Positions 5,075 through 55,549 of a stretch of DNA of 64,000 nucleotides are shown piece after piece (the first letter of the stretch is position 1; every line of letters begins with the position of its first letter). A program made the position numbers and the translations under genes. Origin of the DNA: a virus; IMG/VR virus record IMGVR_UViG_3300032245_000936, positions 48,658 through 112,657 of that record, one strand, 5' to 3'. The notes beneath the pieces were generated by a model that saw only the letters and a program-made list of their open reading frames with translations, was not told the DNA's origin and ran no database searches.

Positions 5075-5075
5075 A

Positions 5076-5716: not shown

Positions 5717-6385
5717 TCAGATTGGTAAGAGTTTATAGTTCACCATGTAAAATCCGCGAGCATCCTTCTTTAATGCTTGTTCATGTTTGGTTCCAACTAG
5801 TTCTTGAGCAATAACGCCAACATACTCTGTGGCTTTGTCCCAGATATATGTCCAAGAATAGATATTCAGACCATTGCGTGTTTCAATGAACTTGATGTTT
5901 TCTTTGAGACGTTGATCACTGTAGTTACAACCGCAGTCGTTGTGACAACTACAAACGTTGTTACAGGAGCAGTCTGAATTACAAATACAATCTTGGCGAA
6001 TTACATCGTAACGTGCTTTGAGCTCCGTCCAATGAGTAATCTGTACCTTTGTGCCTGCGGCCAGCGAAGCCGGAACTGTGGTCAGATATGCTACCATAGT
6101 ACGAAGATTGTTGTATTGTCCTGACGTGGCTGTGGTTGCGCCCGGTGAAAATGCAGTTCCCTCATACAATGTGTATGGGCCGTAATCGCCATGAGAATCA
6201 TAACGAGCAATCTCGTCACGAATACTGCTACGTAATAAATTTATATCTGCGGCTGTTACCTTACCACCTTGAGCCCATTCATTACTCATGGTAATGGCTC
6301 TGTTAGTAGAGCAGCCAGGACGGTGATTTGAACAGGATGATGTGCCTGTTCCGTGGTCAGTGCAGTGTGAACCAGAGCATGCCAT
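5717..6385 (-). CDS. Cys-rich virion-type protein with C-terminal S74 self-cleaving chaperone
   Basis: 222 residues from ATG 6385; its ribosome site (GGAAGGAA) lies in the last codons of the upstream gene. Three parts are visible. Residues 1-30 are rich in Cys, Ser, Thr and His, with Cys at 3, 8, 18 and 25. Residues 33-130 look like a fibre or spike domain. Residues 133-153 form four CxC units separated by three residues (CIC, CSC, CSC, CGC). From 156, SDQRLKENI and GVIAQEL mark the peptidase S74 intramolecular chaperone, in which the Ser of SD and the Lys of RLK form the autocleavage dyad in endosialidases and T5/GA-1 fibres. Cleavage before S156 would leave the CxC array at the new C-terminus of a trimer. 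Radical SAM genes lie on both sides, so thioether formation, disulfides or metal binding are possible (inference). Confidence 0.85.
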   Translation of the reverse strand: MACSGSHCTDHGTGTSSCSNHRPGCSTNRAITMSNEWAQGGKVTAADINLLRSSIRDEIARYDSHGDYGPYTLYEGTAFSPGATTATSGQYNNLRTMVAYLTTVPASLAAGTKVQITHWTELKARYDVIRQDCICNSDCSCNNVCSCHNDCGCNYSDQRLKENIKFIETRNGLNIYSWTYIWDKATEYVGVIAQELVGTKHEQALKKDARGFYMVNYKLLPI

Positions 6386-22300: not shown

Positions 22301-25300
22301 GTATCTCTGTCAAATATTGTGCCCTTGGCGTCAAATGTAACTGACGCCAGTGTAGCTGCCCCGTCGCTGGATATAACCAATGTTTCACCAGTCTGTCCAT
22401 CACAACGAATGACGTAGCCAAATTTTTCTGGTTGATCAAGTCTTGGGTGTTCAATCACCTGGGTCAGAGCATATACTTTAATTCCAGTATCTTTTAATCC
22501 AGTACCAACACCAGGCAAGATGTCTAGTCGTTTAATTGCCTGGGTACTAGTAACTTCAATACGCAATGGGCTACCATCATTGATAGCAATCGCACTGGCT
22601 TGGGTTGTGCGAGCACCAGTGATTGTAACTTTAGGCAAAGATGTGTACCCGGATCCATTCTCAATGATGTCATATGATTTGATTGCGCCATTACCACCAA
22701 AAATCTGAATATTCCCAACCAGTGCTTGTGTGCCAGTTATTAAATCTGGTGGCGCAACAGTAATAGCAACATTGGTACTAAAATACCCTGCGCCTCTGTT
22801 ATTAAATTCAATTCCTGATATACCTTCCACGCTGGACGTAACACCAATGATGTTCTGTGCAGAAATATCATTTAACACCTTTAAACTACTACCATTACCA
22901 GTGGCTGTGTCAATTGATCCAGATAATAACACATCAACATCATTGATACGTATTGTATCACCTAGTGTTGTAACTGGGTACAACTGTGTTGTCAAGGTTG
23001 ATCCATAGAACAAACCTTGATTAACAAAACGATACACTCGTCCATTGTAATAGTTTACATCGCGATATCCAGGAGCACCAATGAATATGCCTTGATTGTC
23101 TGGTGCCATCGCAACAGATTTACCAAAGAAGCCCTGGTACACAGGATCTACACTAGGAATATTCTGAATCAGGTTAAACTTGTTAATGTCAATCTTGATA
23201 CGCTGACCAGATTTTGGAGCTTCAAAAAAGCGCACGGTGAACCCAGAAGCAGTATAGTCAATGCCTTCACGTACTTCAAAGTCATCAAGGGTGACACGGT
23301 TTACCACGCCCAATGCCAGAGACGTTGTGAATAGTGTTTGGCCGCTACCTGTGCCTGTGTACACTTGATATGCTCTATCAAATACATATGATTTACCAGC
23401 TTTGGCTATAACTGTACCGCCTGATGGTTGTTCAATTCCTGTGTCAATTGATACCTCAGGAGCCCCGACAACAACCTGGTAACCAAGGTTGGTACATGCT
23501 ACCGCTTGCCCAAATTTTGAAATTCTAGACACTAATAAATTTTCAGTGCCAATTACAATATACTGATCTGCCAGATAGATGTAAATTTCGTACTGACTAT
23601 ACGTACCTAATTCTGCCACGTAGTTCATTACCTTGGCCAGTGTACCATTGGCAAGATTTGCGTCTACCATTTCACTATAGGTAGTATATGTATTGTTAAT
23701 AGATCTAGTTTGTGCTTCAAGATCGTGAATTGTTTGTACCAATGTTATCACCGAGGCATCATCATACAATGCTTTTAGTTCATCCTTGGTCTTCCAGGTA
23801 ATACGATCATCTGGTTCCAATACCGCTGCCTCAACATAATAAGGATCCAATGGTGATACTGTAATAGACGCTTCGTTGATAAATTCTTGAGTCAAGAAAA
23901 TAATAGTTGAGCCAATTACAGTAAATTCTCGACTTGGTACATACAAGCGTCCACTGGAACCTACTACAGAAATTGTTTCAACACCATTTGGTCGTTGTAC
24001 CAATGGATAAATTGTTTGGTACAAGTCATTTGCATCCTTTAACGGAATAATAGTAGTTGGCTGCGCCTGGCGTGTTACATAAACAGCAACTTCGCCTTCG
24101 ATGGCATCAAATGGGTCAACACTACCTGTAGGAGGAATGAAGGTTAAAATACCACCTGAGATTGAGTAGTCAAAAGCCGCCAAGAATACCCGTCCACTGG
24201 TGCCAACTACTTTAAGCACAGCAGGATTGGTTACATCAACAAAGTTTGTGACATAACTGTAGACTCGACGTTCTGCATCAATGTTAATCTTTAACTGACC
24301 AGTGCCTGGTGATTTACGTGCATACACATACACTTTGTTTGCACCTGGGGCGCCAACATACAACCACTTTTCGTCACGGCTACATGCTAGGCTTTCACCA
24401 AATCTTGCATTAGGTTCTAGATCAACAGGACTCAATACTTGTTTGTTGAGCCAGTTTGTTTTGAAATATTCTGATACTTGCACGGCGCCTCTGGCAGTGA
24501 AGCTACCTGGTGCGCTGGCAAATGTATAAGTGTAACCAATATCCACTGCGTGACCAAACTCAATTGCATCAACAGAGAACGGACGCAGGGTATTGATTGC
24601 TTCTAGGTCCAATGTGCCCACTGCACCTGGGCGAGTAAATGCTTTTACTGCACCTGTTGTAAAAATTGTTTCTAGCACTGCACCGGAACCTGTTCCATCA
24701 GGATCGTATACTGTTGCAACAGGCGCTTTGGCATAACCAGTACCAGGTAATAACGGATAGATTGTTACAGAGGCAATAGAATTGTCTGTTACACCCACCG
24801 TGCCAGTTGCTCCAACGCCAGTATCACCTGAATAGGCCTGTATTAAAAGTTTTGGTTCTTTGTAGCTTTGTCCTGGTTGTGATACAATCAAATCTTTGAT
24901 TGGTACAGGAGATAATCTAGAACGTAGAATTACTGGAGTTGGATTGGTAGTAATTAGATTAACAATTGGTGGTTCTGTATAACCAGCACCACCTGTTGCA
25001 ACTGCAATGGCTGTAATAGTACCAGAACTAATAGTCACTGCACCAGCTGTTGCTCCGCTGCCACCACCACCAATGATTTCAACTGACGGCACAGATGTAA
25101 ATCCGCTACCGCCGTCAATTACGTCAATGAAAGTAACATTGGTTGGGCTCAGTCGAGCGTTAATAATTCCGCCGGTACCACGTGTGAAATTTACAGCAAT
25201 TCCAGTATTTGCACTCAGTGTTCCACTTACTCTAACTTTGTTATTGTTAGAGAAAATCTGTTGAACGGTGATACCATCAGACACAAAAATATTGCTATAT

Positions 25301-28300
25301 CCATACTGTCCAGCTGTTAAGCTAATAGAGTCGCCAACATACACATTTGCCACGTTGCCAAATGTCATTACATCACTGAGTAGTGTATTAGATATTAGTG
25401 TGTGCGTGGTCCCATCAACTATGGTAATATTTGGTTGCAATTGGTAGTTTAGACCAATTGCAGTTAGTTGTGCATTGATTAGCGTTCCGCTTGAAATTCT
25501 AACGTTGGTGACAGGAGCATAGCCCCCTGCTACATCTGGGGTACTAATGAACACTTTGGTCAGAGGACCGTATCCGCTACCTGGGTTTAGTACACGCAAA
25601 CCTGAGATTGTTCCTTGACTGTAGCCTGGAGTTCCAGCTACATATAATCTGTTGTCAACGCTTATTCTTGCTGATGCACCGTAGCGTTCACCAGAAGAAA
25701 AATCGCCATCGCGGATTGGCATCAATTGGTTGAAGTTCCACTGTGATGATTTTTCAAACACTGCCCAGACACCATTGCTTATGTCATTGTCTACCCAGAC
25801 TCTGTCATTTTCTCGCCAGCCGTGTATTGGGGTAAACTTGGTGATATCACTGACCTGATTATAACGAACACTATCCATGACAAAGAATATGCCTTTGCCT
25901 TCGATTGTCTGCTGTTTTCTTAATCTCTGTAGATTTCTGTAACCTGGTACAATAACTGTAAACTGATCGGTAACTGTGGTAACTCTGTAGAATCCATTGA
26001 AGTCAGGATCGAATGATTTAAGCACAAACAAGTTGTTTACTTCAAGCCCGTGCGGAAGATCAAATGATATTTGAATTGTGTCTGCAACACCAATTCTTAT
26101 TTCTGTGATTGTGATATCTGTTTCTGTAGCACGATATACATTCCAGTCTTTGTTAAAGTCTTTAGCTACCCAAAGTTTGTATCCTGCACCAATCTGTTCA
26201 ACTAACTGATAGTAAGATGCAAAGTCAGAAATGTCATATACTGTGTAGTCTACATCGTCCAAGCGTGGATAACCCGCTGTCAAGTTATCGCTGATACGAG
26301 GAGTTACATCGGTACGTGCTCGCACAATCTGTGGATTGTATGTGTCTTCAGTGAATCTATAAACTGTTTCCGGAGTAACATTTACTGCATTATTTACTGG
26401 TGTTTCTCCGCGAGCCAATAGTACCACTGCGGTAGGATCATTAACAAATGTGCTTTCATCCAGCACAATTTCAATTGCCTGGTCTGAACCCAATGCGCCG
26501 TAATCACCAACGCGGAATCCCCACTCTTCGTAAAGGCTAATGTTGCTACCTAGATTATTAAAGTTACCGCGAGTCAAGGTAGTCACTGAACTTAGCGTAC
26601 CTTTTTGTTTGATAAACCCGTGATAGAATTTTACTTGACTTGTTTGATCCAAATCAAAATCTTGGAAGTAGTTACGTGCGCGATACCCAACTAGTCCTTG
26701 ACTAAATTGATCAAGTGTTGAGTCTGCAGGGTGATTATCTAGGTCGTAGATGTTGTTAAACTTCTGTGCGTTTAATGCAAAGTTTGGTAGCAGTCCAGTT
26801 TTAATACGTGACTTTTCAATTGGGGTCCATTTAGAGAAATCAAACTCTGCGGCTGCATTGACTTCTACACTTGCATAGTAATAGTTGTCTTTGAAATTGA
26901 CTAGGCTACCACGTCGATACTGTGTGCCCACTTGCCATATATCAACTTTATCGTTGTTATAGATAAACCCAGCTGGGTTTAGTTGCCCGGTCCAACTTCC
27001 GGTTTTGTTGCCAATTAGTTTTAATCGATACTGACGACTGCCTAGTTCTGGCACATAGATTACATCATTGAACACTGTGGTGTTGTCAAACACAACCACG
27101 TGTTCGTACTGTACTAGGTTAAGGTCTACTAGACCAAACGTCTGACCAAATATACTTTCCAGGGTGAATGTATTGTCTTCACGAGTGACTGTGAATTGGT
27201 TGTTCTTGATAATTGTGAAGTTCTGGTCTAGAACTTTGCTGCCGTTGAGTACATTTTCAACATGGTCAACAACACCATTTTTGTTTGTTACTTTGATAGC
27301 GTTGAAGGCCGGGCTTAGTACCAACACATTGCCGGCTTTCCAGCCTTGTTGGCTCCAAACCAGGAACTCTCTAGCACTTAATACCCAATCTTGCTTGATA
27401 GTTAGATCAATATTGTATTCATCAAATACAAAACCTTGTCCAATCAAGAATCGACCGTAGCTTACCAAGAAGTCAACAATTTCTTGTCGTGTGGTAAATT
27501 CGTAACCATATGGTACTGTGATGCGAGTGCGTTGGAAGTCTCGATAAACTACCGCAGTTTCGTTTAGTTCACTGATCTTATAAGCATTATTATTTGATGA
27601 ACTTGGAATAATTGTAAAGTATGGCGTAATTGTATCGTAGCCAGTTACTGTGTATCTGCCAGCTGATTTTTCAATTATCACTGCGCTATAGATTAGTCTG
27701 TTTAGCGGAGTGCCCTTGTTCAAGAAAATTTTGTAGTTTTCTTGAGGAATTACCACGCTAGAAGAATTACTGCTTGGCGAACTTTGATCGGCCAGGATCG
27801 TTAGGAACTTGCTGTCTGCAAAACCTGCCATTTTGTATCCTAATTTTAATTTAAAATTAGTGATATAATTTCTAAGTGTTTGGCTAGCTGGTAGTCCTTT
27901 GCTAACCAAGTAGTCTCTAATCCAGTTCACATACCCAGCTGTGAATGTTGTTGTTTCGTTTATACCAATGCCATCGCTAGGAATATCAAAAGACGTCTGT
28001 GTTACACGCTGTTTTGTAGTGGTCAACAACAACTGATCAATATCTCTGTCGCGGTAGTAGTTGTTGGTGTTAAACATACTACCAAAGTAGAATGCAGGTT
28101 TTGCCAATGCTAGTGCAATTTGCACTGCATACGGAAACGCACTACTACGGCGCCATGCGGTTTCAACTGGCCCTTGATCTCCAATGGACCAACTGGCTCC
28201 TGTGCGGGTACCATCAAAATTACTGACCACTAGTTTCTCAGGACTGAGCAATAGGCCAATATCATCTACTGGAATATATTTGTTTAGGCCTGGGCGAGCA

Positions 28301-31300
28301 AAACGTGTATCAACTCCTGCACGAGTACCCCGGGCAATACGTCCAGCTTCTAAGTCGTCCCATAGCAGTTTGTTTGCACCAGTATACGGAGCTGGGCCGT
28401 ACACTTCTGTCCACCATGTTGGCTGTTCACTAAAACCTAGCATCTCCCATGGTGCAGTATTAGGACGGTCGGTGTCATAGTAATGTTGATATACTGCTCT
28501 CCAGAATCCTGGCAAGAATTCTCCGTCGGCATCTTTGAGATAATGATAGTTCCATGACCATGAATTATTGGCTGCAAAGGTATCATTGCGTGTGTAGTTT
28601 AATTGATTATTACCTACCCAATTTAAGAAATTGCGTGTTAACAATCTATTAAATTCTGCAAGAGTGTATTCAGTATTGCGGAACTTGCCGGGCAAGTAAT
28701 CATATATGTCTAAGATATTGGCTTGGTAGTCAACTTTGATGTTGTTGTAGATTCGAAGTTCTAGCTCCATCAACAAACGATCACGTATGTCATTGAACAC
28801 AGGAGTTAGCGATCCGTCGTGTCCTTGGATCACCATCACTGGTACTTGATATGTAGTATCCTCAAACATTGTTGGAACATAACGTGGATATAAACCTAGC
28901 TTGGTAGGTGTTTCAGGAACATAACTACCAATAGTGCTTGGTCTTTCAACCACTAGCAATGTTTGTGTATAGGTTAGTTGTACGTGGTCAGCTAGATCAA
29001 TGGCCGGCAAGGTTTGATTAAATTCAAAATCAATTCCTTTAATCAATTGTTGATTAAGTCCAATAGAGTCATCGCGAAGATATACCAATATGCTACGACG
29101 ACTTAACTCCATGTCTTTGTAGATGTTTGGAATTTCGTAACGACGACGCTGTGTATTGATTATTTTTATTGGAGTATTAACTACTGCGCCACCCCATGGC
29201 ACCATGTCACTGTCATACCATGGACTGGTTGAGTTCTTGCCTACCATGACAGAAGTCATTACAACTTCAAACGCATCAGCAATGTTTGATGGTAAATCTT
29301 GTTTCAAGCATTGATCTAGGAATCGTTGCTTGAACCTAGTATATTCTTTTTGTGCATATTCTGCGGCTTCAACAAATCCCAATCCCTTGCTTATATTACT
29401 GCTAGTAGCCGACGAGTTTGCTTCTAGACTGCTAGTAGCAGAATCACCAAGCATGATTGCGGCATAGGTTCCAGGACTTGCATGTTGTACAATCGAGCCT
29501 TGCCAATCTTTAATATACAAATCTCTAGAATTATTTTTTCCTGCAACTGTTCCAGATAATCCTAGATGATTCTCACTCATATGAGTAAAGTGGTTACGCA
29601 TCTGTCCTAGGGTTAGTACAGTGAAATTAGAATTTTGTGCATTCACGTCAATGTTTGACGGAATCTCGTAATACCCCATGTTGCTCTTTGCTTTTGCATA
29701 GATAAAAATATCCACGTTACTTGCTGGTTTAACTTTCAACAATGCCTGATCAACAACCACTGCATAACGGCCGCCGTATTTGCGTAGTGTATATTGATCA
29801 CTGGAAATTTTGCTGTGATCAACATATACCTTGATATAAGGTATAGCCGCACTTGGCAAGGGCAATATATCAATTTCAAAATAATTGGTACGTCCATCAA
29901 ACTCATGATGTATAATTTGATACTGTTTGGTTTTTTCTTCGAGCTTGGTCCAAATATTTCTAAAAGCAAATGTTCCGTTGACTCGTGTTTTTAGAAAATA
30001 ATTGTTTACATTGCGAGAAACTTCAACTGTATCCAAATTATAGCGGAATGTGTCAATATCAAAGTCATTGTTGAACTGTATATCTCCAACGTTTTGGAAA
30101 CTGCGATAGCTCAACGGGAACCCTAGGAATTTGTCATTAGCTCCTGTTCCTACTTTGTATGAGTATACTTTTGTGCCTGCAAACTTGCTACCTGGATAGT
30201 AGTTTGAATCTCCGACAGAATTTCCATCTTTGTCAAAAATATCAAACAAAGGTGACTGATTATAATTGTTTTTCTGCTGACCAGGAATCCACTCTTGTCC
30301 AGTGTAGTAGTACTGATTAAACAATGTGATCACGCCAGTTTTTAACTGTGCTGTTGCAGTTGAACCTGCAGTGGGTTCTGTCAGTAATATTGTATCACCT
30401 GCTTCGTAGGTGTCTGGAGTGGTATCACCATCGCTAGCAATAAAATTGGTTGCAGAAGTAATTTCTGCAATGGCTTTTGCGGCATAGGTAAATGTTGCTT
30501 CAATGGTAACAAAAGGTTCTTGAGCAATATCTAGAATCACTCGATACTGCTTTTCAGTTGCTGATAACTGTACTGTCTGTAAGTCAACTACCTTAGGAAC
30601 ATCTGCGCCAGTGGTTAATCCAATGCCATTGGCGTTGTAGTTACTGGTCACTGTTGCGCCAATTTCAATACCATCATGATCTGGAACGATCAATACTGTA
30701 CCACCAGCACAGTCAGTGAATTTGGTCACTGCTGGAATTTGTGGTGTTATAGTGATTCGAGGTGCAGATGTATATTCTGCGCCAGGGTCAGTGATGTCAA
30801 TTCCAACAATCTTAGATGGAGCAAGTTTTGTAGTAACTACTGCACTAGTAGAAAACTTCAACGGAATATTCTGTCCAAGAGTAATAACAGAATTAACATA
30901 CACAATACTACTGTATTGATCAACGCTGGTCACGCGAAGATTGTCTGGCAACGATCCTGCAAGGTCTGTCACTGACATACCGGCTTGAATCCCCATAACA
31001 GTGTTCAAACGCAGGCCAGTCTCTGTAGCATTTTTACCTAACAACACTTGATTTACAATGTAAGATGTTTTATCAGAGCCAATTGGCTGTGACGAAGCAA
31101 ATTGTTCTTGTGTGAAGAAACGATTCTGTGCAGAGAATACAACTTTGCTACCAGCTGGTAGATCAATTGGCTCGCCGTCAGCATCACGAGCATCAATGTC
31201 ACCAGTTAACACAACCTGATTATCAGCCACCGCCAGTACTTTTAGAATATTCGCATTGGACAGATCCACGTCCATATAGAACTGATATGTGTCTGGATTT

Positions 31301-34300
31301 GGTCCTGTTACCTCAGTTTCAACATACGGAGTTCTAGAGAAGTCAGCATAGTAGAAACCACCAGTGGCATTTGGTACTACCAAGAAAGCCAACCAACCTG
31401 GTTTTATATATTGTACGTCTGTGTAGGAGTCAAAGGTTAAAACTCTTGATCCGTAAGCAGAAGCTTCTCCGGTGGCAACTTCTACATTGTTAATCACTGT
31501 GGTGATAATGTCTGTGCCCAAGCGATATCCAGAACCCACAGATTGAATTGTAAAGTATTCAATTGTGTTATTGTTCAGAATTGCTGTTGCAGTTGCTTGT
31601 GCAGTGAGAATTTCTGGATTTGACGGTGGTGGTGGTATAGTCAAACTTGGGGCGCTGGTATAACCAGATCCAGGGTCATTGATAATCACTGTGTAAATTC
31701 CGCTACCATCGCCGTTGGCGCTGCCTTTTGCAGGAACGCCTAAGAAAACTAATTCTGTGCCTTGTTTCAAACTCACTGATTTGCTAAGTTGCAGAGTGGT
31801 GCTATCAATAATTCTTATTACTCTCGTGTCGTAGGGCACAGTATACCCCGAGGTGTATCCACCAGAAACATACTCAAAGTAACTACGACCGTCAACTGGA
31901 TCAGTGAGTCCAACATCGCTGTACAAGTTAATTGTTAATGTGTCAACTACATCAACATAATAACTGTTGTTGTTTAACTGTGTGGTTCCGTTTACACCAA
32001 TAATGGTCACTAGATCGCCATTGACAAACCCATGAGGATTGCCCGGACTTGTGGTAATAGTAATTGGTAATACCACCGCAGAAGTGGTATACAGGAAAAT
32101 GTTTTGAATTGGAACAGGAGTTGATCCGCCCACAAGTATCATGTTACGCATGGTATATTGTGTGGTGTCAACTTTGATCTGAGTTTGGTATCTCACTGTC
32201 TCTGACACAATTGAAACATTTCCAACGTTGCTCTTGAATGTCAATGGCACTGTGAGTGTGTTGGCATTAGGGCCTGGTTTAGCCTCATCAGCACCAAACA
32301 AACGCACAGGAATGCTGAGTGTGATATTTCCCGAGATTCCATTTACGGCAGAAACTTTTGTTCCACTAAGAATATTAGGTGCATATACAAACCAATTTTG
32401 TGCTAGCCCAGACGGCACTGCATCCAAAGTGATAGTATCTGAAGTCACAAGCCCGTTGGCAAATGCGCTAACAAAAGTATTTGCTTGAGCTGGATTTGGA
32501 GAGCTGAATATGACATCGATGTTTTGTGCTGAATACCCTGCGCCTTTGTCAGTGATACGAATATAATCAACATACTTGAATGCGTTGTAAACAGGAGTAA
32601 TCACTGCCGGAGTATCGTATGTTGTTGAAATTGTTACTGTTGGTTCAGCAATGTAGTTTAGTCCAGAGAAATTTACATCAATCAAATTAACGCTGGTTGG
32701 TGCAGCCAGGGCCACGCCTTGTGCAGTACGAGTACCAATACCAGGAAAAGGTGAAGTAAATGTCACAGTTGGAACGGTGGCATAGGTTGGTGCTGTGGCA
32801 TAATTTGTTCCGCCACTGATCAATTCAATTTGCCCAACATAGCCTGTGCCTGTTAGATGAGCCACTGCATTGGCTCCAATGCCTTTGCCTTTGTTTACAA
32901 AAACAATAGTAGGTGTTCCACGGTAACCTGCACCTGTATTACCAATGATAATATTAGTAACAGTTCCTGTAATAGGATCTATATTTGCTGTGGCAGTAGC
33001 AGGGTATATTGGATTACCTCCAATAACAGCAACCTGTGTGTCTTGGACCATGGTGGCGCCTGACACATAATAGCTTGGGGCTGTTTGTGTATTCTTGCTT
33101 ACCAAATGAATCTGGGTCTGCTGACTAGTGGAAATAAAATCAACTTGCCAAATTCTATTTCGTACATCTGGATCCAGATCATTGGCAAAAATAATACGTG
33201 TTCCACTGGTCAGCTGACGTGTGACGCCATTAGGAAGTCGCACTATAAATTCTGTTTTACCTTCAACTTGGCTAAAGGCATCTGTAACTGTGTAGTCAAT
33301 TATGTCAACTGGTGCTTTTGCACGACTACCATGGTTGAACAGCATAATGTCTGCTTCAAATTCAATAATAGGGCGGCGAGCGCGAGTGTCTGCAAACTGC
33401 TCAAGTATGGTTGTATCGTTATTATACTTTGCGGTCAATGTCAGCAAGTCAGTGTGGAACCAGCGGTTACTGCGCGACCATGCGTTTAAATCTGAACTTG
33501 CACGATTGATAGTAACATAATCAGGTGTGGTTACTAATGGATTAACGTATTCCTCAGGTATAATCAAATTACCAACAGGAACCAATGTAATTGATCTACC
33601 AACACCTTCAACAATGTATAATCCATTAGAGTAGATAGCTGGAACAACAGTTGAGTCAAATCTTATTTTTAGCCCATTAGTAAACTTAACGCCATTGGGA
33701 CTGGTATAAACAGGTTTGCCAATAATATCTGTTTCAACATCAAGTTGTGCAAAGTCTGGTTCTACTAAACGAATAATTCCAGAGTACTTGCCGTCTACAC
33801 CATCCTGGTAGTAAAGAGTATCTAATGTTGCAGTGATTGGACGAACCGGTTCCCACTTTTGTCTTGAATTCTTAAAGAATGTAACACCAGAGTTTGCTTT
33901 ACCGGCTTTTACAAATACTTTTTGTCCAACATTAACCTGACGAATAGGAACCAATTGAATTACAAAGCGGCCGCCACCAGTATCAAAAGTACTGATGCGG
34001 AAAATATCTTGTCTATTCTCTTGAGGAATGTATACTGGAGCATCTTCACTGTCAAACGGACGGAAATCAAACACACCAGGATCAGTCCAGTCTTCGTTGT
34101 TGTCGCTAGGATTTAAAAAAATCAAAGTACGGTCGCGCAAACTTTCTGTTACGCCATCAATACCACCAGCGCGGACCAGATTTGAATTCAAATGATTTTG
34201 CAGTTGTGCAAAAGTCAAGGTAGTGGCCAAGTCAACATCGGCAACTTTCTCAGCTGAGATGTATGCGTCTTGAGCATTGGTATTTGGTACACGGAATGTA

Positions 34301-35001
34301 ATAAGTCCAGCGTCTATACCGTTGTTGTCAATTCCCAGGATGTCGCGGCTTAATGCTTCTGATTCAGTTGAGCGTGTGCCTGTTGCACCTAACTGAGTTT
34401 GAATCCAAAATGGATGCCCGGCTTGGCTGATGCTAAAGGTATAGGTAGTTCCTTTAACCAAAGTAAGAATAGGATTACTGTCAGTACCAAAACCAGTGAA
34501 ATTATATCCATTGGCAACTCTGTTGTAGTTTACTTTGTAATCAAGTACTTGCACATCAGAGCTGGCTGACACAGCCACTTCAGGAGGGCCATCTGGTAAC
34601 CAGTAGTATTGATTGAAGTTAACAAATTTATCAAAATCAATCAATCCATTGAAGTTGTAACTTTCGCCTGCAAACAAACGGCTATGGTCATTGACCAAAC
34701 CACCGTAGTAAGCAATTTTTTGCAACAAGTCTGTGTAGCTGTTAAAGAATGCAACATTTTTATTTGCATCTTCAACTACCATACTGGCTTCAAGTTGATA
34801 ATTCTGACGTTCTGCGGTTGGCTCTGGTATATAACTGTCTCCAGACACAAACGTAGGCGCGACTTGTCTTCCGATATAACCATTGATTTTTCTAAAATCT
34901 GGTTCTGATATCAGCTGATCCATAGTAGCAGAAACAAACTTATTGTTTGTTTTGCTCCTAAAGATCTCAGGCAAAAAATTGATACTTTTACGTACAGCCA
35001 T
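16321..35001 (-). CDS. Giant baseplate/tail structural protein (gp7 position), 6226 residues
   Basis: One uninterrupted 18.7-kb frame. Residues 1-150 (MAVRKSINFLPEIFRSKTN onward) resemble the start of very large structural proteins of cyanophages and pelagiphages. It lies between gp6 and the gp8-region genes, where T4 encodes the wedge protein gp7 (1,032 residues), so it may replace gp7; direct similarity to gp7 is not evident. At least 17 copies of a short beta module with the pattern GxGYxxxPxVxI occur between about residues 670 and 5050, sometimes followed by a GGGGSGA loop. FG-GAP-like propeller blades (FGESLACS and YVGAPG; FGQAVAC and VVGAPE; FFGKSVAM and FIGAPG) lie around 3100-4290. 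BNR/Asp-box-like blades (SQDGVNWT, SLDAVNWN) lie around 5230-5680. A late-type motif precedes it. Confidence 0.88.
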   Translation of the reverse strand: MAVRKSINFLPEIFRSKTNNKFVSATMDQLISEPDFRKINGYIGRQVAPTFVSGDSYIPEPTAERQNYQLEASMVVEDANKNVAFFNSYTDLLQKIAYYGGLVNDHSRLFAGESYNFNGLIDFDKFVNFNQYYWLPDGPPEVAVSASSDVQVLDYKVNYNRVANGYNFTGFGTDSNPILTLVKGTTYTFSISQAGHPFWIQTQLGATGTRSTESEALSRDILGIDNNGIDAGLITFRVPNTNAQDAYISAEKVADVDLATTLTFAQLQNHLNSNLVRAGGIDGVTESLRDRTLIFLNPSDNNEDWTDPGVFDFRPFDSEDAPVYIPQENRQDIFRISTFDTGGGRFVIQLVPIRQVNVGQKVFVKAGKANSGVTFFKNSRQKWEPVRPITATLDTLYYQDGVDGKYSGIIRLVEPDFAQLDVETDIIGKPVYTSPNGVKFTNGLKIRFDSTVVPAIYSNGLYIVEGVGRSITLVPVGNLIIPEEYVNPLVTTPDYVTINRASSDLNAWSRSNRWFHTDLLTLTAKYNNDTTILEQFADTRARRPIIEFEADIMLFNHGSRAKAPVDIIDYTVTDAFSQVEGKTEFIVRLPNGVTRQLTSGTRIIFANDLDPDVRNRIWQVDFISTSQQTQIHLVSKNTQTAPSYYVSGATMVQDTQVAVIGGNPIYPATATANIDPITGTVTNIIIGNTGAGYRGTPTIVFVNKGKGIGANAVAHLTGTGYVGQIELISGGTNYATAPTYATVPTVTFTSPFPGIGTRTAQGVALAAPTSVNLIDVNFSGLNYIAEPTVTISTTYDTPAVITPVYNAFKYVDYIRITDKGAGYSAQNIDVIFSSPNPAQANTFVSAFANGLVTSDTITLDAVPSGLAQNWFVYAPNILSGTKVSAVNGISGNITLSIPVRLFGADEAKPGPNANTLTVPLTFKSNVGNVSIVSETVRYQTQIKVDTTQYTMRNMILVGGSTPVPIQNIFLYTTSAVVLPITITTSPGNPHGFVNGDLVTIIGVNGTTQLNNNSYYVDVVDTLTINLYSDVGLTDPVDGRSYFEYVSGGYTSGYTVPYDTRVIRIIDSTTLQLSKSVSLKQGTELVFLGVPAKGSANGDGSGIYTVIINDPGSGYTSAPSLTIPPPPSNPEILTAQATATAILNNNTIEYFTIQSVGSGYRLGTDIITTVINNVEVATGEASAYGSRVLTFDSYTDVQYIKPGWLAFLVVPNATGGFYYADFSRTPYVETEVTGPNPDTYQFYMDVDLSNANILKVLAVADNQVVLTGDIDARDADGEPIDLPAGSKVVFSAQNRFFTQEQFASSQPIGSDKTSYIVNQVLLGKNATETGLRLNTVMGIQAGMSVTDLAGSLPDNLRVTSVDQYSSIVYVNSVITLGQNIPLKFSTSAVVTTKLAPSKIVGIDITDPGAEYTSAPRITITPQIPAVTKFTDCAGGTVLIVPDHDGIEIGATVTSNYNANGIGLTTGADVPKVVDLQTVQLSATEKQYRVILDIAQEPFVTIEATFTYAAKAIAEITSATNFIASDGDTTPDTYEAGDTILLTEPTAGSTATAQLKTGVITLFNQYYYTGQEWIPGQQKNNYNQSPLFDIFDKDGNSVGDSNYYPGSKFAGTKVYSYKVGTGANDKFLGFPLSYRSFQNVGDIQFNNDFDIDTFRYNLDTVEVSRNVNNYFLKTRVNGTFAFRNIWTKLEEKTKQYQIIHHEFDGRTNYFEIDILPLPSAAIPYIKVYVDHSKISSDQYTLRKYGGRYAVVVDQALLKVKPASNVDIFIYAKAKSNMGYYEIPSNIDVNAQNSNFTVLTLGQMRNHFTHMSENHLGLSGTVAGKNNSRDLYIKDWQGSIVQHASPGTYAAIMLGDSATSSLEANSSATSSNISKGLGFVEAAEYAQKEYTRFKQRFLDQCLKQDLPSNIADAFEVVMTSVMVGKNSTSPWYDSDMVPWGGAVVNTPIKIINTQRRRYEIPNIYKDMELSRRSILVYLRDDSIGLNQQLIKGIDFEFNQTLPAIDLADHVQLTYTQTLLVVERPSTIGSYVPETPTKLGLYPRYVPTMFEDTTYQVPVMVIQGHDGSLTPVFNDIRDRLLMELELRIYNNIKVDYQANILDIYDYLPGKFRNTEYTLAEFNRLLTRNFLNWVGNNQLNYTRNDTFAANNSWSWNYHYLKDADGEFLPGFWRAVYQHYYDTDRPNTAPWEMLGFSEQPTWWTEVYGPAPYTGANKLLWDDLEAGRIARGTRAGVDTRFARPGLNKYIPVDDIGLLLSPEKLVVSNFDGTRTGASWSIGDQGPVETAWRRSSAFPYAVQIALALAKPAFYFGSMFNTNNYYRDRDIDQLLLTTTKQRVTQTSFDIPSDGIGINETTTFTAGYVNWIRDYLVSKGLPASQTLRNYITNFKLKLGYKMAGFADSKFLTILADQSSPSSNSSSVVIPQENYKIFLNKGTPLNRLIYSAVIIEKSAGRYTVTGYDTITPYFTIIPSSSNNNAYKISELNETAVVYRDFQRTRITVPYGYEFTTRQEIVDFLVSYGRFLIGQGFVFDEYNIDLTIKQDWVLSAREFLVWSQQGWKAGNVLVLSPAFNAIKVTNKNGVVDHVENVLNGSKVLDQNFTIIKNNQFTVTREDNTFTLESIFGQTFGLVDLNLVQYEHVVVFDNTTVFNDVIYVPELGSRQYRLKLIGNKTGSWTGQLNPAGFIYNNDKVDIWQVGTQYRRGSLVNFKDNYYYASVEVNAAAEFDFSKWTPIEKSRIKTGLLPNFALNAQKFNNIYDLDNHPADSTLDQFSQGLVGYRARNYFQDFDLDQTSQVKFYHGFIKQKGTLSSVTTLTRGNFNNLGSNISLYEEWGFRVGDYGALGSDQAIEIVLDESTFVNDPTAVVLLARGETPVNNAVNVTPETVYRFTEDTYNPQIVRARTDVTPRISDNLTAGYPRLDDVDYTVYDISDFASYYQLVEQIGAGYKLWVAKDFNKDWNVYRATETDITITEIRIGVADTIQISFDLPHGLEVNNLFVLKSFDPDFNGFYRVTTVTDQFTVIVPGYRNLQRLRKQQTIEGKGIFFVMDSVRYNQVSDITKFTPIHGWRENDRVWVDNDISNGVWAVFEKSSQWNFNQLMPIRDGDFSSGERYGASARISVDNRLYVAGTPGYSQGTISGLRVLNPGSGYGPLTKVFISTPDVAGGYAPVTNVRISSGTLINAQLTAIGLNYQLQPNITIVDGTTHTLISNTLLSDVMTFGNVANVYVGDSISLTAGQYGYSNIFVSDGITVQQIFSNNNKVRVSGTLSANTGIAVNFTRGTGGIINARLSPTNVTFIDVIDGGSGFTSVPSVEIIGGGGSGATAGAVTISSGTITAIAVATGGAGYTEPPIVNLITTNPTPVILRSRLSPVPIKDLIVSQPGQSYKEPKLLIQAYSGDTGVGATGTVGVTDNSIASVTIYPLLPGTGYAKAPVATVYDPDGTGSGAVLETIFTTGAVKAFTRPGAVGTLDLEAINTLRPFSVDAIEFGHAVDIGYTYTFASAPGSFTARGAVQVSEYFKTNWLNKQVLSPVDLEPNARFGESLACSRDEKWLYVGAPGANKVYVYARKSPGTGQLKINIDAERRVYSYVTNFVDVTNPAVLKVVGTSGRVFLAAFDYSISGGILTFIPPTGSVDPFDAIEGEVAVYVTRQAQPTTIIPLKDANDLYQTIYPLVQRPNGVETISVVGSSGRLYVPSREFTVIGSTIIFLTQEFINEASITVSPLDPYYVEAAVLEPDDRITWKTKDELKALYDDASVITLVQTIHDLEAQTRSINNTYTTYSEMVDANLANGTLAKVMNYVAELGTYSQYEIYIYLADQYIVIGTENLLVSRISKFGQAVACTNLGYQVVVGAPEVSIDTGIEQPSGGTVIAKAGKSYVFDRAYQVYTGTGSGQTLFTTSLALGVVNRVTLDDFEVREGIDYTASGFTVRFFEAPKSGQRIKIDINKFNLIQNIPSVDPVYQGFFGKSVAMAPDNQGIFIGAPGYRDVNYYNGRVYRFVNQGLFYGSTLTTQLYPVTTLGDTIRINDVDVLLSGSIDTATGNGSSLKVLNDISAQNIIGVTSSVEGISGIEFNNRGAGYFSTNVAITVAPPDLITGTQALVGNIQIFGGNGAIKSYDIIENGSGYTSLPKVTITGARTTQASAIAINDGSPLRIEVTSTQAIKRLDILPGVGTGLKDTGIKVYALTQVIEHPRLDQPEKFGYVIRCDGQTGETLVISSDGAATLASVTFDAKGTIFDRDTTRFIDSLKNSGAVYVYDYLPVPGETLQNPGKFLFNQVLQNSKIKFNDNFGSSVDINNGRIMVGAFNSSYYSTQAGLMHLFINPTSKKGWSKLRSRSELVDIDYINKVSAYNKKTQVALSTFDYYDPAKGKILGIADQDIDYKTSYDPAFYNKGTDTTVNIDATSYWNDVQIGRVWWNLDACRYITYEQGELTYRISQWGGLFPGSTIEILEWVESQYLPSDYVANGGDGVPKYPNDSAYVEVAYIDTQSGLVKTKYYYWVTDKVSVDTAKTKRINSISAISDIIQNPIKQELPYIAALSTNTFAVYNSKPFISGKDSILRIEYAQVLNNNIAHSEYELVQQGNPLSAIPTKLINKLIDSLAGENLTGDVVPDLKLREVDRLGISLRPRQSMLKDQAAGTRVLVQFVNKFFKQYLIAKEYDLTQLKLAEAIPQENLGFYDSRVTTKDALAYFTPADLFDGFRVLVETDADYSGFWTIYFYTAKDKTFTLERIQSYDSTRYWNYANWYINDTFNDNIQVNHIINSYNDIETLKEKVVDGDILKVTNFGGNFELYQLAVDSAGIITPTLVGAENGTIQLNSSLYDNTKSLVGFDNPGFDTTGFSKSLAIEARNIINGIFNYIFIGDNRVQLNKVFFALVNYILSEQQNADWLFKTSFITVVQKIRKLEQFASYIKDQQDYYQSYINEVKPYRTQLRDYLLDYEGLDESYNAIADFDFPAYYDPVRGTTRSLNPTKATDLAIVNAGVWKNWYQNYRYSIQRIVVTDSGSGYKQRPLVRISGGGGVSASARAVLDTDGKVVSVTITSPGQYFTSAPTITFVGGGGSGAKAYAELVSLTGNTTVDNSSKTVRTITTILNFDRITYSSSVRTWKPYTTYHVGDIVVVPDVKTSVFYNLPDQAVPSFSTPYRVLKTILGTVTLDLNIFQNDAVVQKLSGSDVDNAVDRLAAFHKPGTPDVAVLFNSPDTVRLTPASNNNDASSTGNQWARTAFSGVIPAANEYQYISVGQRGLLSYSQDGVNWTNVPLNDQAVNLRDVVYYNGTTWVAIGNRGYVLTSLDAVNWNIDQIITFRYSPSLDAVNGLVLNEAAQAVDLTGVTAFTSTQGSYILTVGNSDTILLNPTDTNASAPFENTWYAAKAQPKVYNTPANFLAVDSRSFGDLSLFIRAKTLRASATWAAVTGSTLIVRIPTADISGTIEFGMTMISPYVPTNHGVINVDSSTTPGTTVIQLGFTENTAIAAAGTVGTTRPAQMVHFAYYNANLEGSGSFTLNGFGKPMQVGFVVIGGINGNMYITSYNRLDDLQQGYKLSYNYDSGKGTDFNYPWIPMNVPKSVAGDSDGYSGEQINAIAISDDVGQWIIAIGSGGTLIWNKLDSPLQVQLGNADTGADTIGKVVMNYGINVFKNFREFDSDNFVLPLSAENVRKYDFTDISWDGEKFIVVGNKSTVIWGYPGYNDEVYIELGNINPNRYAYTRNSSAHWTGGTGLTSLIISIPVTDVIGAPIRGMTLNGAGLPTDSIITNVELIAGSWNITISFASANITTTVLGSFIAEYLFTAEIPVGTVLTFTDIDTATTKTLTVSRTAAKGDSVVYVNGYEKVTANWSISGTGIPLAATVNGIGRFAKFTWKFARGSGRDNNINYESIVVNKTTLQLNKPLSLPNKPSTDTSVAIPAGTSLTFFDATGTKIQKTTTQDVRNNTTTLIFETTDGLKIDYVLSPDTVFGIQSGTKIVSTAQYNIAGVLDHLYRDIPDKIPGASYPGGLVKGQEFLQTNTDPLSLDTIISSEYTDNLLGIRPEDIIVDGGKFIDKYSSHAPEELVPGQVIDSLQMNVFTANVTNGNIDYGNVTAFKIFTDYKLSTVYYRLPDANTTVLTANLSYEDTEISVADIARLPAPAAAINQPGSIWVNGEKINYFGIDLNRGVLTDIRRGAQRTSIPLVHVAGSIITDASPVQQFETDTVLTISNDYSVYNNIGNASIQNTAVYRVATTTHVPQGSIWLDLGQ

Positions 35002-50532: not shown

Positions 50533-50573
50533 TTTTATCATGGCACACAAAGAGATAATTATGTTTGCAGATC

Positions 50574-51002
50574 ATGACATGGACTTATCAAGGAAACCCA
50601 GTTGAAGAATTGCCCGACGACTGTGTGGGGTTTGTCTACATGATTACAAACACAATCTCTGGAAGAAAATACATAGGCAAAAAACTAGCAAAATTTTCAA
50701 AAACAACTACCAAAACGGTAAAACTTAAAAACGGCACCAAAAAGAAAAAGAAAATCCGCTCCAAGATTGACAGTGATTGGCGCACATATTATGGCTCAAG
50801 CCCAGAACTAACCAAAGATGTTGTAGCACTAGGCTCAGAAAACTTTTCCAGAGAAATCCTCTTTATTTGCAAATCAAAGGCAGAATGTAGTTACATTGAA
50901 GCTCGAGAACAATTCACACATAGAGTACTAGAATCAGCAGATTACTATAACGGACACATACAAGTCCGTGTACATGGCTCCCACATAATCAACAAACTCT
51001 GA
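50574..51002 (+). CDS. GIY-YIG nuclease, possible Seg-like homing endonuclease
   Basis: 142 residues from ATG 50574. GFVYMI near residue 19 and KYIGKK near 32 are the GIY and YIG parts; an Arg in DWRTYYGSS and a Glu in SYIEAREQF fit the catalytic residues of this nuclease family. A lysine-rich insertion (GTKKKKKIRSK) lies between the YIG and Arg motifs. No separate DNA-binding repeats follow, so it is compact, like free-standing phage GIY-YIG enzymes. It has its own promoter, ends right before a noncoding, hairpin-rich region, and is the last rightward gene before the convergent gp26 gene. Homing or DNA-repair roles are both possible. Confidence 0.85.
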   Translation: MTWTYQGNPVEELPDDCVGFVYMITNTISGRKYIGKKLAKFSKTTTKTVKLKNGTKKKKKIRSKIDSDWRTYYGSSPELTKDVVALGSENFSREILFICKSKAECSYIEAREQFTHRVLESADYYNGHIQVRVHGSHIINKL

Positions 51003-51470: not shown

Positions 51471-51704
51471 TTAAAAGAATGGCATACCTGATTTCTTCGT
51501 TGCTTCCATATTGTCTTTGATAATATCAGCAATGATTTCTTTTTCTATTTTGCTTAATGCCATTGCGTCTTCGTAGGATAAGCCTCCACGCATCCACCAC
51601 GTGAATCTGAGGGCTTCTTCTTTTATGGCTCTTACCTCTTTTTCGTAGCCCGTGACTAGAGCTTCGATGCCTTCATTGTCTAATGCTAAGAGCCGTTGCC
51701 GAAA
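51471..51704 (-). CDS. -1 frame extension of the gp26-like protein (gp51-like tail assembly segment)
   Basis: This 77-residue frame overlaps the end of the gp26-like gene. It has no ATG, GTG or TTG before residue 38, inside a WWMRGGLSYEDAMALS segment that looks like the conserved core of a small tail assembly protein of T4-like phages; it ends KKSGMPFF. A stop codon in this frame lies just upstream of a perfect slippery heptamer A_AAT_TTT (51710-51704). A -1 slip there would give a 368-residue fusion (291 residues of gp26-like protein plus 77). This matches the way G/GT tail chaperones are made in many phages. Opposite it, across the late promoters, lies the tape-measure gene. The frame is certain; the slip is inferred. 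Confidence 0.78.
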   Translation of the reverse strand, partial: FRQRLLALDNEGIEALVTGYEKEVRAIKEEALRFTWWMRGGLSYEDAMALSKIEKEIIADIIKDNMEATKKSGMPFF

Positions 51705-52576
51705 AAATTTGTATAGTCAAACACCACATTCATGTCGATGCCTTTTCCACATTCAGGGTTTTGACACTTGACAGGCTGTGATGGTACCTTGCCTGCTTCA
51801 GCTACTTCAGCTAATCGTTCTTGAATCTCAGACACTATCTTGCCGCCGGCGTTTTTATAAAACTCAACAATGAATTCTTTGTCGGCTACTTGTAGATTAA
51901 GATCATCTACAGGAGCAATCCATTCTGTGCATTCTGCTAGTATCTCTAGATTTAGATCCAACAGTCGATTCATTTGTGCAGTCACATGATCACTCTTTTC
52001 GTCACTGGACTGCATGGAGTCAATGTACTGTCCTAGTTTCTGCACTTCGAAGTTGATCTTGTTTGCACGGTTCTGTCCAAAGTATGCTTGAGGACGGAAC
52101 TGAATCAGGAACTGTGTGGTTTGATACGCATGTTCGTAGTCAGGACAGGAAATTTTGTCTAGCATGGCACGTAGATCCATGCTAAAGGTATTGTCCTCAC
52201 CGCAGTGCGGGCACTTGCTTTCAAAATCCATCATGTGACCGTAGCTGGCAATGCGTATGGCAATCAATGTGGTATCCACATCCACCGCTGGCATTTTCCA
52301 GGCGTCTTTGATATTTGGGCAACAGCTCTGAATTACTTCTACCATGCCCTGTCCGTTGATCAGCGCATCTGGGGTACGAATAATAACTTCATCCTTGCTG
52401 GTCATTGGGTACACTGGTAACTCACCGGTGGCTGGTATATCCAAACTGCCTTCTGCCCACCACTTGCCCTGGCTAGGCAGCGCCATGTAAATTGCAGGCT
52501 GGCGAAAGTACTTGGATAGCGGATTTCCTGATGGATTTCCGGGAGGTGTTAGTTGTGGCATTGGTTCTGTGCCCAT
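51686..52576 (-). CDS. 26: gp26-like baseplate hub assembly protein (T4 baseplate protein family)
   Basis: 296 residues from ATG 52576. After a Pro-rich start, IYMALPSQGKWWAEGSLD and ELPVYPMTSKDEVIIRTPDA, then NGQGMVEVIQSCCPNI, match the conserved start of the T4 baseplate gp26 family. KCPHCGEDN near residue 124 and KCQNPECGKG near 272 could bind one zinc ion. T4 gp26 is about 208 residues, so this is the longer type found in cyanophages. It ends with a slippery heptamer that links it to a -1 frame extension. In this light the pair may be tape-measure chaperones (gpG/gpGT analogues) rather than a structural hub part. Late octamer at 52620-52613. Confidence 0.85.
   Translation of the reverse strand: MGTEPMPQLTPPGNPSGNPLSKYFRQPAIYMALPSQGKWWAEGSLDIPATGELPVYPMTSKDEVIIRTPDALINGQGMVEVIQSCCPNIKDAWKMPAVDVDTTLIAIRIASYGHMMDFESKCPHCGEDNTFSMDLRAMLDKISCPDYEHAYQTTQFLIQFRPQAYFGQNRANKINFEVQKLGQYIDSMQSSDEKSDHVTAQMNRLLDLNLEILAECTEWIAPVDDLNLQVADKEFIVEFYKNAGGKIVSEIQERLAEVAEAGKVPSQPVKCQNPECGKGIDMNVVFDYTNFFGNGS
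51704..51710 (-). promoter_or_regulatory. Slippery site A_AAT_TTT for -1 ribosomal frameshifting
   Basis: The minus-strand AAATTTT is read in the gp26 frame as A AAT TTT, the canonical X_XXY_YYZ form, 15 bases before the zero-frame stop codon. Downstream, hairpins AGATCTC/GAGATCT and the terminator stem are too far to be the usual stimulator; a pseudoknot was not sought. Confidence 0.75.
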
Positions 52577-52633: not shown

Positions 52634-55549
52634 ATGGATGAGAAACAATTAGAACGGATGTTTGAACGCTTTTTTGGTCGCGGTGGTGCGGGTAATTCTG
52701 CACCAAGAGGCCCAGCTGGTGGAGCAGATCCTGCAGAAACAGCCATGCGTACAGCCAAGCAGTTTGATCAACTGCGCGACACTGTAAACAAATCAAACGA
52801 AGCCCAGAAAAAACTGTCCATTAGCAGTGGCATGCTAGCGGCTGCTTTTGGCAAACAAAGCCAAAAAAATCAAGAGAACATGAATGATCTAGAAGATGCG
52901 TATCGCAATCTAGAACATGCAATCAAAGACCAAGACGCAGCCTTCACTGACAGTCAACGTGCAGAGCTCAAGCGTGAGCGAGATAGAATTAAGTCTGAAA
53001 TAGACAGACAAAATGCAATCAGTACAGGGCAACAGGCCACACTGGGTGCAATGAAAGAGTTCAGTCAAGGACTGGTTAGTACACTAGCCAGTACAGTTGC
53101 TAGCATAGCTCAAACAATTCAAGGTGGCGGATCGGGCTTTGCAATTGGCGCCCAGGTAATGAATGCCCAGATTGATGTAACCAATCAAGCGAACCAAGCC
53201 ATGGCAGGTGTTGCAGGGCAAGTGGGCGGAACACTAATGAACAGCACCAACAAAGGTGCTAAGTTAGCCGGTGGTGCAATGATGGCTGCTGGTGCTGCCG
53301 CTAGTATGGCAAGCAACGCATTGTCAACACTGGCCAAAGCTGGTGTGGCTATTATGATGGCCGAAGGTGAGAAAGTAATCAACACCTACAAGAGCATGGC
53401 TGAGTCTGGTGTAGTGTTTGGTAACGGCATTAGAGACATGCAGGCTGCAACGTCAGGTACAAAACTACGCCTTGAAGACATGGCAGAAGTAGTAGGCAAT
53501 AATAAAGATGCTTTTGCCAAGTCAGGTTTGGGCATGGCAGAAGCCACTAGACGTGTTGGTGGAATTGCCAAGGCTATGACAGCCAGTGGTATGGATAAAG
53601 AACTGTTGGCCTTAGGATACAGCTACAAAGATCAAGCGGCACTGGCAGCACAGGTATTTGCAGACATGCGTCAAAGTCGCGGCGGGCAAAATGTAACCAA
53701 TGCTCAGGCAGCTGAAGCAACCAAGAAGTATGCTGAGAACCTAACACTGATTGCGGCAATCACTGGCGAAGACATCAAAGCCAAGCAAGCCAAGATACAA
53801 GAAGAAAATGCCAACCAGGCCATGGAAGCCAAATTGGCTGCAATGGATCCGGCTAAACGCAAACAATTTGAAGCCGCACTGAACTCCATGGACGGTCCAA
53901 CTCGTGCGGCAGCTCGTGACATGTTGATCTTTGGCACTGTGCGAAATAAAGAAGCCGCACAGCTAATGGCATCAAACAGCGGATTTAGAAAGAACGTTGA
54001 ACAAATCTCAGGAGCAATGAGAGATGGGTCACTTGATACACAAAAGTCATTGGCTATTCAAAAATCTAACTCTAAAGAATTGATTGCACAGCAACGAGAG
54101 CAAGCAGATAGTGTAGGAGCCGCGGCTTATGCAGGTGCCGAAGGTGCCCAGGGCCTAAGCAAAGCAGGCTACGAAGCCACAGAAATGGCCAAGAGAATGC
54201 AGGATGCAGATCCTGCAAAAATTCTTAAGGAACAACAAGAAGCTGAGGAAAAAGCGCGAAATGCCAAAGGTGGTGACAAAGATCCAACAGCGGCTATGTT
54301 TACTGCAATTGAGCAAGGTGCAACTCTCGCTAAGAGTCTGCAGGACAAAGTCATTGACAGTTTGCATGTATTGCCTGGCAAAATGGCCGAGTACTATGCA
54401 CAAATTGACAAGATGCTTGCAGAAATGAGTAGTGGCGGTCAGAAGCAACTGGGACTCATGGAAAAGATCATGGAGATGTTGCCACTGGTAATTGGTGTTA
54501 TACAACTACTGGCAACTCTCAAAGGTATGAAGATACCGGGCATGGGCGGAGGCAAAACTCCTACTATTGTAGAAGCAGAAGCCAAGGCAGCTAAGAATGC
54601 AAGCAAAACAGCAGTTGACGCAGAGAAGACGGTGGCCAAAGAAGTGGCCAAAGATGCGGCAAAAGCATCAACCCTTGCGGCGGAAGCTACTCCAGCAGCC
54701 AACGGAATCAAATCAGCTGGTAAACGATTCCTTAAAGGAGTTCCAATAGTAGGAACTGCATTAACACTAGGGCTAGGTGCTACCAGTGTATATGGCGCAC
54801 AAACAGATGCAACAAAAACACAGCAACAAAAAAATGCTGCCACTGGTGAAGTAGTGGGAGATGTAGCTGGTGGTGCTCTTGGTGGATGGGGTGGAGCCGC
54901 AGCCGGTGCCGCAATCGGCACAATGATATTCCCAGGCGTGGGCACTGCTATTGGTGGATTGATTGGTGGCATTGCAGGTGGTATGGGCGGTGGTGCTCTT
55001 GGTGGAATGGTTGGCGATAAACTTGGTGGATTGTTTGGTGGTGATACCAAAGTAAAAACTGATGCAGTACCTGCAATGCCAAAACCGGATCCTAAGATAG
55101 CCAATGACTGGGCATGGAGTGTGTTCTCTGGAAAGAATAGACCTGGTGATGTACCAGCACCATACAGAGACATGGTTAGTAAGATACTTGCGGCACCACC
55201 TGCACACTGGGCCAAAGCGGCAGCTACTACCACAGCCTCTACTGTTAGCAGTGTTAGAAGCACTGTGGACAACATGAGTGCCTCTTCACTGAACACTAGT
55301 ACCGTTGCAAATAGTTTGTCTGCACAGCAAGCAGCCAATAATACATCGTCGCAGACTGGTACAGCAACCGGTAAACTGGTAAAGAAATCCGCAGAAGACC
55401 TATTAGAAGAACAAAATAGGATCATGGCTGAACAGAACAAACTGTTACGTGACCAGCACAAATTGATGTCTGTGAAGTTTGACCAAATGATTAACCATAA
55501 TCAGGATCTAAGCGACACAGCTAGAAAACAACTAAGAGCGTCTGCGTAA
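52634..55549 (+). CDS. Tail tape measure protein (gp29 analogue)
   Basis: 971 residues from ATG 52634. Coiled-coil-prone helices (residues 55-130 and 330-460), Ala/Gly-rich hydrophobic stretches (about 140-240), and a long Gly-rich putative membrane segment (GGALGGWGGAAAGAAIGTM and IGGLIGGIAGGMGGGALGG, about 745-800) are typical of tape measures that help DNA cross the inner membrane. It ends with a helical, charged tail (EEQNRIMAEQNKLLRDQHKL). The T4 tape measure gp29 has 590 residues; a length of 971 would suit a longer tail if the ratio holds. It lies opposite the gp26-like gene and before the portal gene. No lysozyme domain is seen. Confidence 0.8.
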   Translation: MDEKQLERMFERFFGRGGAGNSAPRGPAGGADPAETAMRTAKQFDQLRDTVNKSNEAQKKLSISSGMLAAAFGKQSQKNQENMNDLEDAYRNLEHAIKDQDAAFTDSQRAELKRERDRIKSEIDRQNAISTGQQATLGAMKEFSQGLVSTLASTVASIAQTIQGGGSGFAIGAQVMNAQIDVTNQANQAMAGVAGQVGGTLMNSTNKGAKLAGGAMMAAGAAASMASNALSTLAKAGVAIMMAEGEKVINTYKSMAESGVVFGNGIRDMQAATSGTKLRLEDMAEVVGNNKDAFAKSGLGMAEATRRVGGIAKAMTASGMDKELLALGYSYKDQAALAAQVFADMRQSRGGQNVTNAQAAEATKKYAENLTLIAAITGEDIKAKQAKIQEENANQAMEAKLAAMDPAKRKQFEAALNSMDGPTRAAARDMLIFGTVRNKEAAQLMASNSGFRKNVEQISGAMRDGSLDTQKSLAIQKSNSKELIAQQREQADSVGAAAYAGAEGAQGLSKAGYEATEMAKRMQDADPAKILKEQQEAEEKARNAKGGDKDPTAAMFTAIEQGATLAKSLQDKVIDSLHVLPGKMAEYYAQIDKMLAEMSSGGQKQLGLMEKIMEMLPLVIGVIQLLATLKGMKIPGMGGGKTPTIVEAEAKAAKNASKTAVDAEKTVAKEVAKDAAKASTLAAEATPAANGIKSAGKRFLKGVPIVGTALTLGLGATSVYGAQTDATKTQQQKNAATGEVVGDVAGGALGGWGGAAAGAAIGTMIFPGVGTAIGGLIGGIAGGMGGGALGGMVGDKLGGLFGGDTKVKTDAVPAMPKPDPKIANDWAWSVFSGKNRPGDVPAPYRDMVSKILAAPPAHWAKAAATTTASTVSSVRSTVDNMSASSLNTSTVANSLSAQQAANNTSSQTGTATGKLVKKSAEDLLEEQNRIMAEQNKLLRDQHKLMSVKFDQMINHNQDLSDTARKQLRASA

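Follow-up and report, generated by a model that had tools for sequence, protein, structure and literature searches.

How does a T4-like phage obtain two forms of a tail-assembly chaperone from one gene? The question is raised by a locus in a 64,000-nt stretch of DNA (the window), part of a virus record of 112,657 bases, where a gene of the gp26 type ends over an open -1 frame that lacks a nearby start codon. We propose that this gene, which belongs to an uncultured T4-like phage, almost certainly yields a short and a long chaperone by a -1 slip, a reading drawn from sequence comparison. The first-pass annotation had likened this gp26-type gene, with the tape measure gene as its neighbour, to the G/GT pair of λ, and the homologues support that view, the slip site and the -1 frame being invariant among them. 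The features of the locus, in window coordinates, are as follows.

51686..52576, minus strand: ORF for TAC-N, the putative gp26-type short tail-assembly chaperone, 0 frame, 296 aa, assigned by PF12322, phrog_150 and homologues
51701..51707, minus strand: candidate slippery heptamer T_TTT_TTC, identical in 118/118 distinct junctions
51704..51710, minus strand: A_AAT_TTT, in frame, overlapping T_TTT_TTC; found in 47/118 junctions, not conserved
51686..51688, minus strand: TAG, the 0-frame stop, 4 codons past the heptamer, read from the sequence
51717..51719, minus strand: TGA shortly before the slip site, closing the -1 frame there, read from the sequence
51471..51701, minus strand: TAC-C, the -1 frame, beginning at CGG and running for 76 codons to the TAA stop at 51473-51471
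51687..51694, minus strand: 5' arm of the predicted stem, GGCUCUUA, 6 nt after the heptamer
51627..51634, minus strand: 3' arm of the predicted stem, UAAGAGCC, which pairs with GGCUCUUA
52634..55549, plus strand: tape-measure-like protein, 971 aa, phrog_167 match (E=5e-9), divergent neighbour of the TAC-N gene

The 3' region of the TAC-N ORF reads ACA AAT TTT TTC GGC AAC GGC TCT TAG, and reading from the T run in the -1 frame gives FRQRLLALDNEG...KKSGMPFF, through to position 51471. The -1 frame comprises 77 residues, and its first ATG, GTG or TTG comes only at residue 38, the M of WWM; the earlier description of a frame that opens after the TGA and has no start before that residue is thus borne out by the sequence.

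Where would the ribosome slip? The first-pass annotation had named A_AAT_TTT, which is present in frame. To look at conservation we gathered homologues via the 0-frame protein (31 loci), via the -1 peptide (42 loci) and via a profile built from that peptide (80 viral loci and 4 loci from bacterial assemblies), and added annotated phage genomes. T_TTT_TTC was in frame in 82/82 loci of the first homologue set that reach the junction, in 84/84 loci of the second set, and in every distinct junction, including 65 that had been held out; the T run never exceeded six. The -1 frame was always open in these gp26-type genes, but it is the overlapping T_TTT_TTC, and not A_AAT_TTT, that is the conserved heptamer. 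The codon preceding TTT TTC varies among the 118 junctions (AAT, AGT, CAT, CGT, ACT, GAT, GCT), and the 0-frame stop lies mostly +1 or +4 codons past the heptamer. Elsewhere in the same ORFs, T_TTT_TTC occurs in frame at 0/14,047 codon positions, and neighbouring Phe codon pairs use all four combinations. After a slip on U_UUU_UUC, tRNA-Phe re-pairs well, so that T_TTT_TTC is the likely slip site. The same peptide (...TNFFRQRLL...) results whether the slip falls on T_TTT_TTC or on A_AAT_TTT.

The slip site is found also in cyanophages and in KVP40-like, Aeromonas, Agrobacterium and Rak2-like phages, where the locus is often annotated as two genes; phiM9 has T_TTT_TTG in place of T_TTT_TTC. Public records present the -1 frame as a separate gene in Atu_ph07, Phosso, 121Q, S-RIM8 and phiM9, all of which have the slip site, under the label 'hypothetical protein' or 'baseplate hub assembly catalyst'. 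The separately annotated -1 frames lie at 5112-5234 (locus L075), 5007-5237 (L076), 5828-6037 (L078), 1932-2069 (L181) and 1854-2033 (L183). Two contigs of 335 kb and 153 kb (L098 and L099), from a Neomarinimicrobiota assembly bin from the Red Sea, have the -1 domain and are probably large phage contigs inside the bin.

Does the -1 frame encode protein? The first-pass annotation had called it protein-like, and the comparison upholds this. The frame is open for 70-77 codons in each complete locus; in none of 48 loci is the region broken by a stop, against means of 5.0 and 6.3 stops in the two remaining frames. Differences fall by codon position as 1638/945/3033, and from this distribution we take the region to be protein-coding; as judged from the aligned sequences, the -1 frame evolves as protein. 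AlphaFold2 predicts an all-helical TAC-C domain (pLDDT 88.9).

The 0-frame protein matches PF12322 (T4_baseplate) with E=1.6e-14 and 54.6 bits, against a cut-off of 24.5, and also PHROG 150 (phrog_150); its homologues are usually annotated 'baseplate hub'. AlphaFold2 gives TAC-N a confident N domain (pLDDT 83.9), and comparison of the fold with the PDB returned no match to a solved chaperone. In T4, the PF12322 match covers the first ~200 residues of gp26 and of gp51 alike; gp51 then extends about 48 residues further at its C-terminus. Is the -1 domain the counterpart of that extension? For a group made up of S-RIM8, S-SSM6a, the KVP40-like phi-pp2, Aeromonas avDM6 and phiM9 (the cyanophage/KVP40 group), the -1 domain aligned with the gp51 C-terminus at E=2.2e-10 (reversed control, 0.075) and a probability of 97%. 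The window group's -1 domain gave a weak but colinear match to gp51, with E=2.6e-4 and a probability of 42%, compared with 0.3% for a reversed control; restricting the comparison to the C-terminus raised the probability to 71%. With the -1 domain as query, sequence searches of Pfam, PHROGs and the PDB returned no convincing match, and Foldseek gave weak matches only, including one gp51 and two tail chaperones, none of them significant. The TAC-N gene is the sole PF12322 gene in the 112.7-kb record, so that no separate gp51-like gene is seen there, although the record is possibly incomplete. The earlier suggestion that gp26 and gp51 of this phage form a G/GT pair holds as to the frameshift pair, but the frameshift product would stand in the place of a separate gp51. 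The best reading of these comparisons is that the 0-frame and -1-frame products are a TAC-N/TAC-NC tail-assembly chaperone pair made via -1 ribosomal frameshifting.

The tape-measure-like ORF starts 57 bp from the TAC-N gene on the other strand, where the first-pass annotation had placed a tape measure gene. The divergent layout recurs in 98/98 loci with a tape-measure match (duplicates included), and the two genes share a strand in none. On the other side, a SegE-type GIY-YIG protein (PF19835, E=5e-35; window 50565-51002, plus strand) converges on the nearby end of the chaperone gene. Elsewhere, a lone ORF of 6226 codons (16321-35001, minus strand) occupies almost one third of the window. The CBB virion proteome, in the portion available to us, lists the tape-measure-like CBB_251 and not the TAC-N homologue CBB_250, as expected for a chaperone. 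For phAPEC6 the order suggests the same absence of the TAC-N homologue from the virion, and PA5oct gp336 is without the MS flag that its neighbours bear.

What might promote slippage at this site? A stem can be drawn downstream of the heptamer, and relatives carry compensated arm pairs such as GGCUUUUGAC/GUCAAAAGCC and GGCUCUUGACU/AGUCAAGAGCC. Because both stem arms encode protein, the control was a resampling of codons with the amino acids kept. With a fixed 10-bp helix, 48 loci gave 335 Watson-Crick pairs against 150±9 expected (maximum 176 in 500 trials), and the held-out set of 65 loci gave 403 against 195±11 (maximum 231). In an alignment of 40 sequences, 76% of cells were paired, versus 27-52% with the partner slid, and 35 double changes were counted versus 14.8 in shuffles. 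One stem pair, UA in 16 sequences and CG in 14, joins a Leu position where the change is synonymous to one that codes for Lys or Arg; on the protein tree, at least three changes are required to account for CG. Taken one base pair at a time, sign tests on independent pairs agreed in direction (about 2.7:0 and 2.5:0), with too few events for significance. The window's own fold energy is modestly better than that of shuffles and not exceptional (z=-1.4), so that the evidence for the stem is comparative.

The position of the helix differs among lineages. RNAalifold gave no consensus across all 40 junctions, since the 3' arms differ between lineages, and the fixed-helix count and a scan with a free 3' partner were used in its place. 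The scan found a stem, at P<0.05 each, in 88/105 non-jumbo junctions, with the 5' arm 5-7 nt past the heptamer (the range scanned) and the 3' arm at +36, +42, +54, +66, +73/74 or +87/88. It found no clear stem in Rak2-like phages, and the stem is accordingly not universal. In cyanophage S-SSM6a (L182) a perfect 12-bp stem, AAGUAUGUCUCA/UGAGACAUACUU, begins 4 nt after T_TTT_TTC. The stem had no match in Rfam, nor was it found in the literature searched, which did not include Vladimirov et al. 2022. The RNA stem probably helps slippage and sets the TAC-N:TAC-NC ratio. Going further, we lean towards the view that the T4-type tail-chaperone frameshift sites in this lineage possess an RNA stimulator not described before, whose 5' arm has kept its place 5-7 nt past U_UUU_UUC and whose 3' arm has shifted among at least six positions between lineages, a helix of roughly 6-15 bp being kept and the TAC-N:TAC-NC ratio thereby tuned.

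Might the two frames be joined, or used, in some other way? RNA polymerase could slip on the T6 run and join the frames in the transcript, and a six-T run is indeed present on the coding strand of every homologue. Against this, none of the 118 junctions has a run of more than six, the pattern is in every case the ribosomal X_XXY_YYZ, and the conserved stem lies 3' of the run, where it cannot form until RNA polymerase has left the site; we regard transcriptional slippage as very unlikely. A homopolymer at a junction also invites suspicion of a sequencing or assembly error, or of a decayed gene. The same junction, however, recurs across independent assemblies, isolate genomes among them, at more than 150 loci, with purifying selection on both sides, which leaves this explanation with a negligible probability; the homologues have already refuted it.

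The second frame might instead be a gene in its own right, begun by reinitiation or translational coupling. Databases do annotate two genes, and in a minority of junctions an ATG overlaps the region of the 0-frame stop (for example L004, L021, L025, L066, L075, L076 and L086), as a TTG does in some homologues. Reinitiation is possible at the junctions with such an ATG; the window has none, and there the frame runs without a start codon for 37 residues. Among the 65 held-out junctions, 33 have no ATG before codon 30. T_TTT_TTC is conserved and start codons are not, and coding conservation reaches back to the heptamer. The phages in which the second frame is annotated separately have the same slip site, and only the T4 group is truly two-gene. 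For these reasons an independent second gene seems to us extremely improbable.

If -1 ribosomal slippage is the correct reading, most ribosomes would end at the TAG (51688-51686) and release the short form, TAC-N, which is gp26/gpG-like. A minority, with tRNA-Phe/tRNA-Phe on U_UUU_UUC (51707-51701), would slip back one base and add 76 codons, giving TAC-NC, a gpGT/gp51-like product with a helical C-terminal domain. Starting 6 nt beyond the heptamer, the stem would probably make the ribosome pause and fix the ratio between the two forms. By analogy with λ, TAC-N would coat the tape measure protein, the C domain of TAC-NC would recruit tail-tube subunits, and neither protein would remain in the virion.

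How much of this is new? A 2016 review (PMC5009743) describes the λ gpG/gpGT precedent and gives the frameshift as conserved, T4 excepted. The chaperone genes of T4-like phages were identified by Vladimirov, Gautam and Davidson (2022, Virology 566:9), as cited in PMC10885494 and PMC12846349; citing that work, the former reports T4-like phages with separate short and long genes and the latter poly-T frameshift signals in T4-like TAC-N genes. Given those poly-T signals, the frameshift idea is not new. What is new relative to known TAC frameshifts, within the literature searched, is the conserved downstream stem. The slip site with its relocated stem offers a natural series for testing what a downstream stem contributes to the ratio of two proteins, and the results correct many 'baseplate hub' and 'hypothetical protein' annotations.

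Compared through those citing papers, the T4-like TAC-N/TAC-NC systems share with the present locus a gp26-type TAC-N, a poly-T -1 signal and an extension at the C-terminus encoded by the -1 frame; the present case differs in its uncultured lineage, in the definition of the heptamer as T_TTT_TTC and in the added stem. The TAC genes of Vandenendeviridae and Andersonviridae (phage Adele, PMC12846349) likewise have a -1 frameshift, with an invariant GTTTTT at the 3' end of TAC-N, but these are different families, and the available portion of that paper reports no stem. With λ gpG/gpGT we found no sequence relationship, and the tape measure gene in the window, instead of lying downstream, runs divergently. 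T4 gp26 and gp51 are alike in both belonging to PF12322, gp51 consisting of the PF12322 part and a C-terminal domain that resembles the -1 frame; T4 differs in that the two are divergent genes and the end of gene 26 is without the T run. Many T4-like phages thus keep a frameshifted chaperone, and it is the two-gene form of T4, gp26 plus gp51, that looks exceptional.
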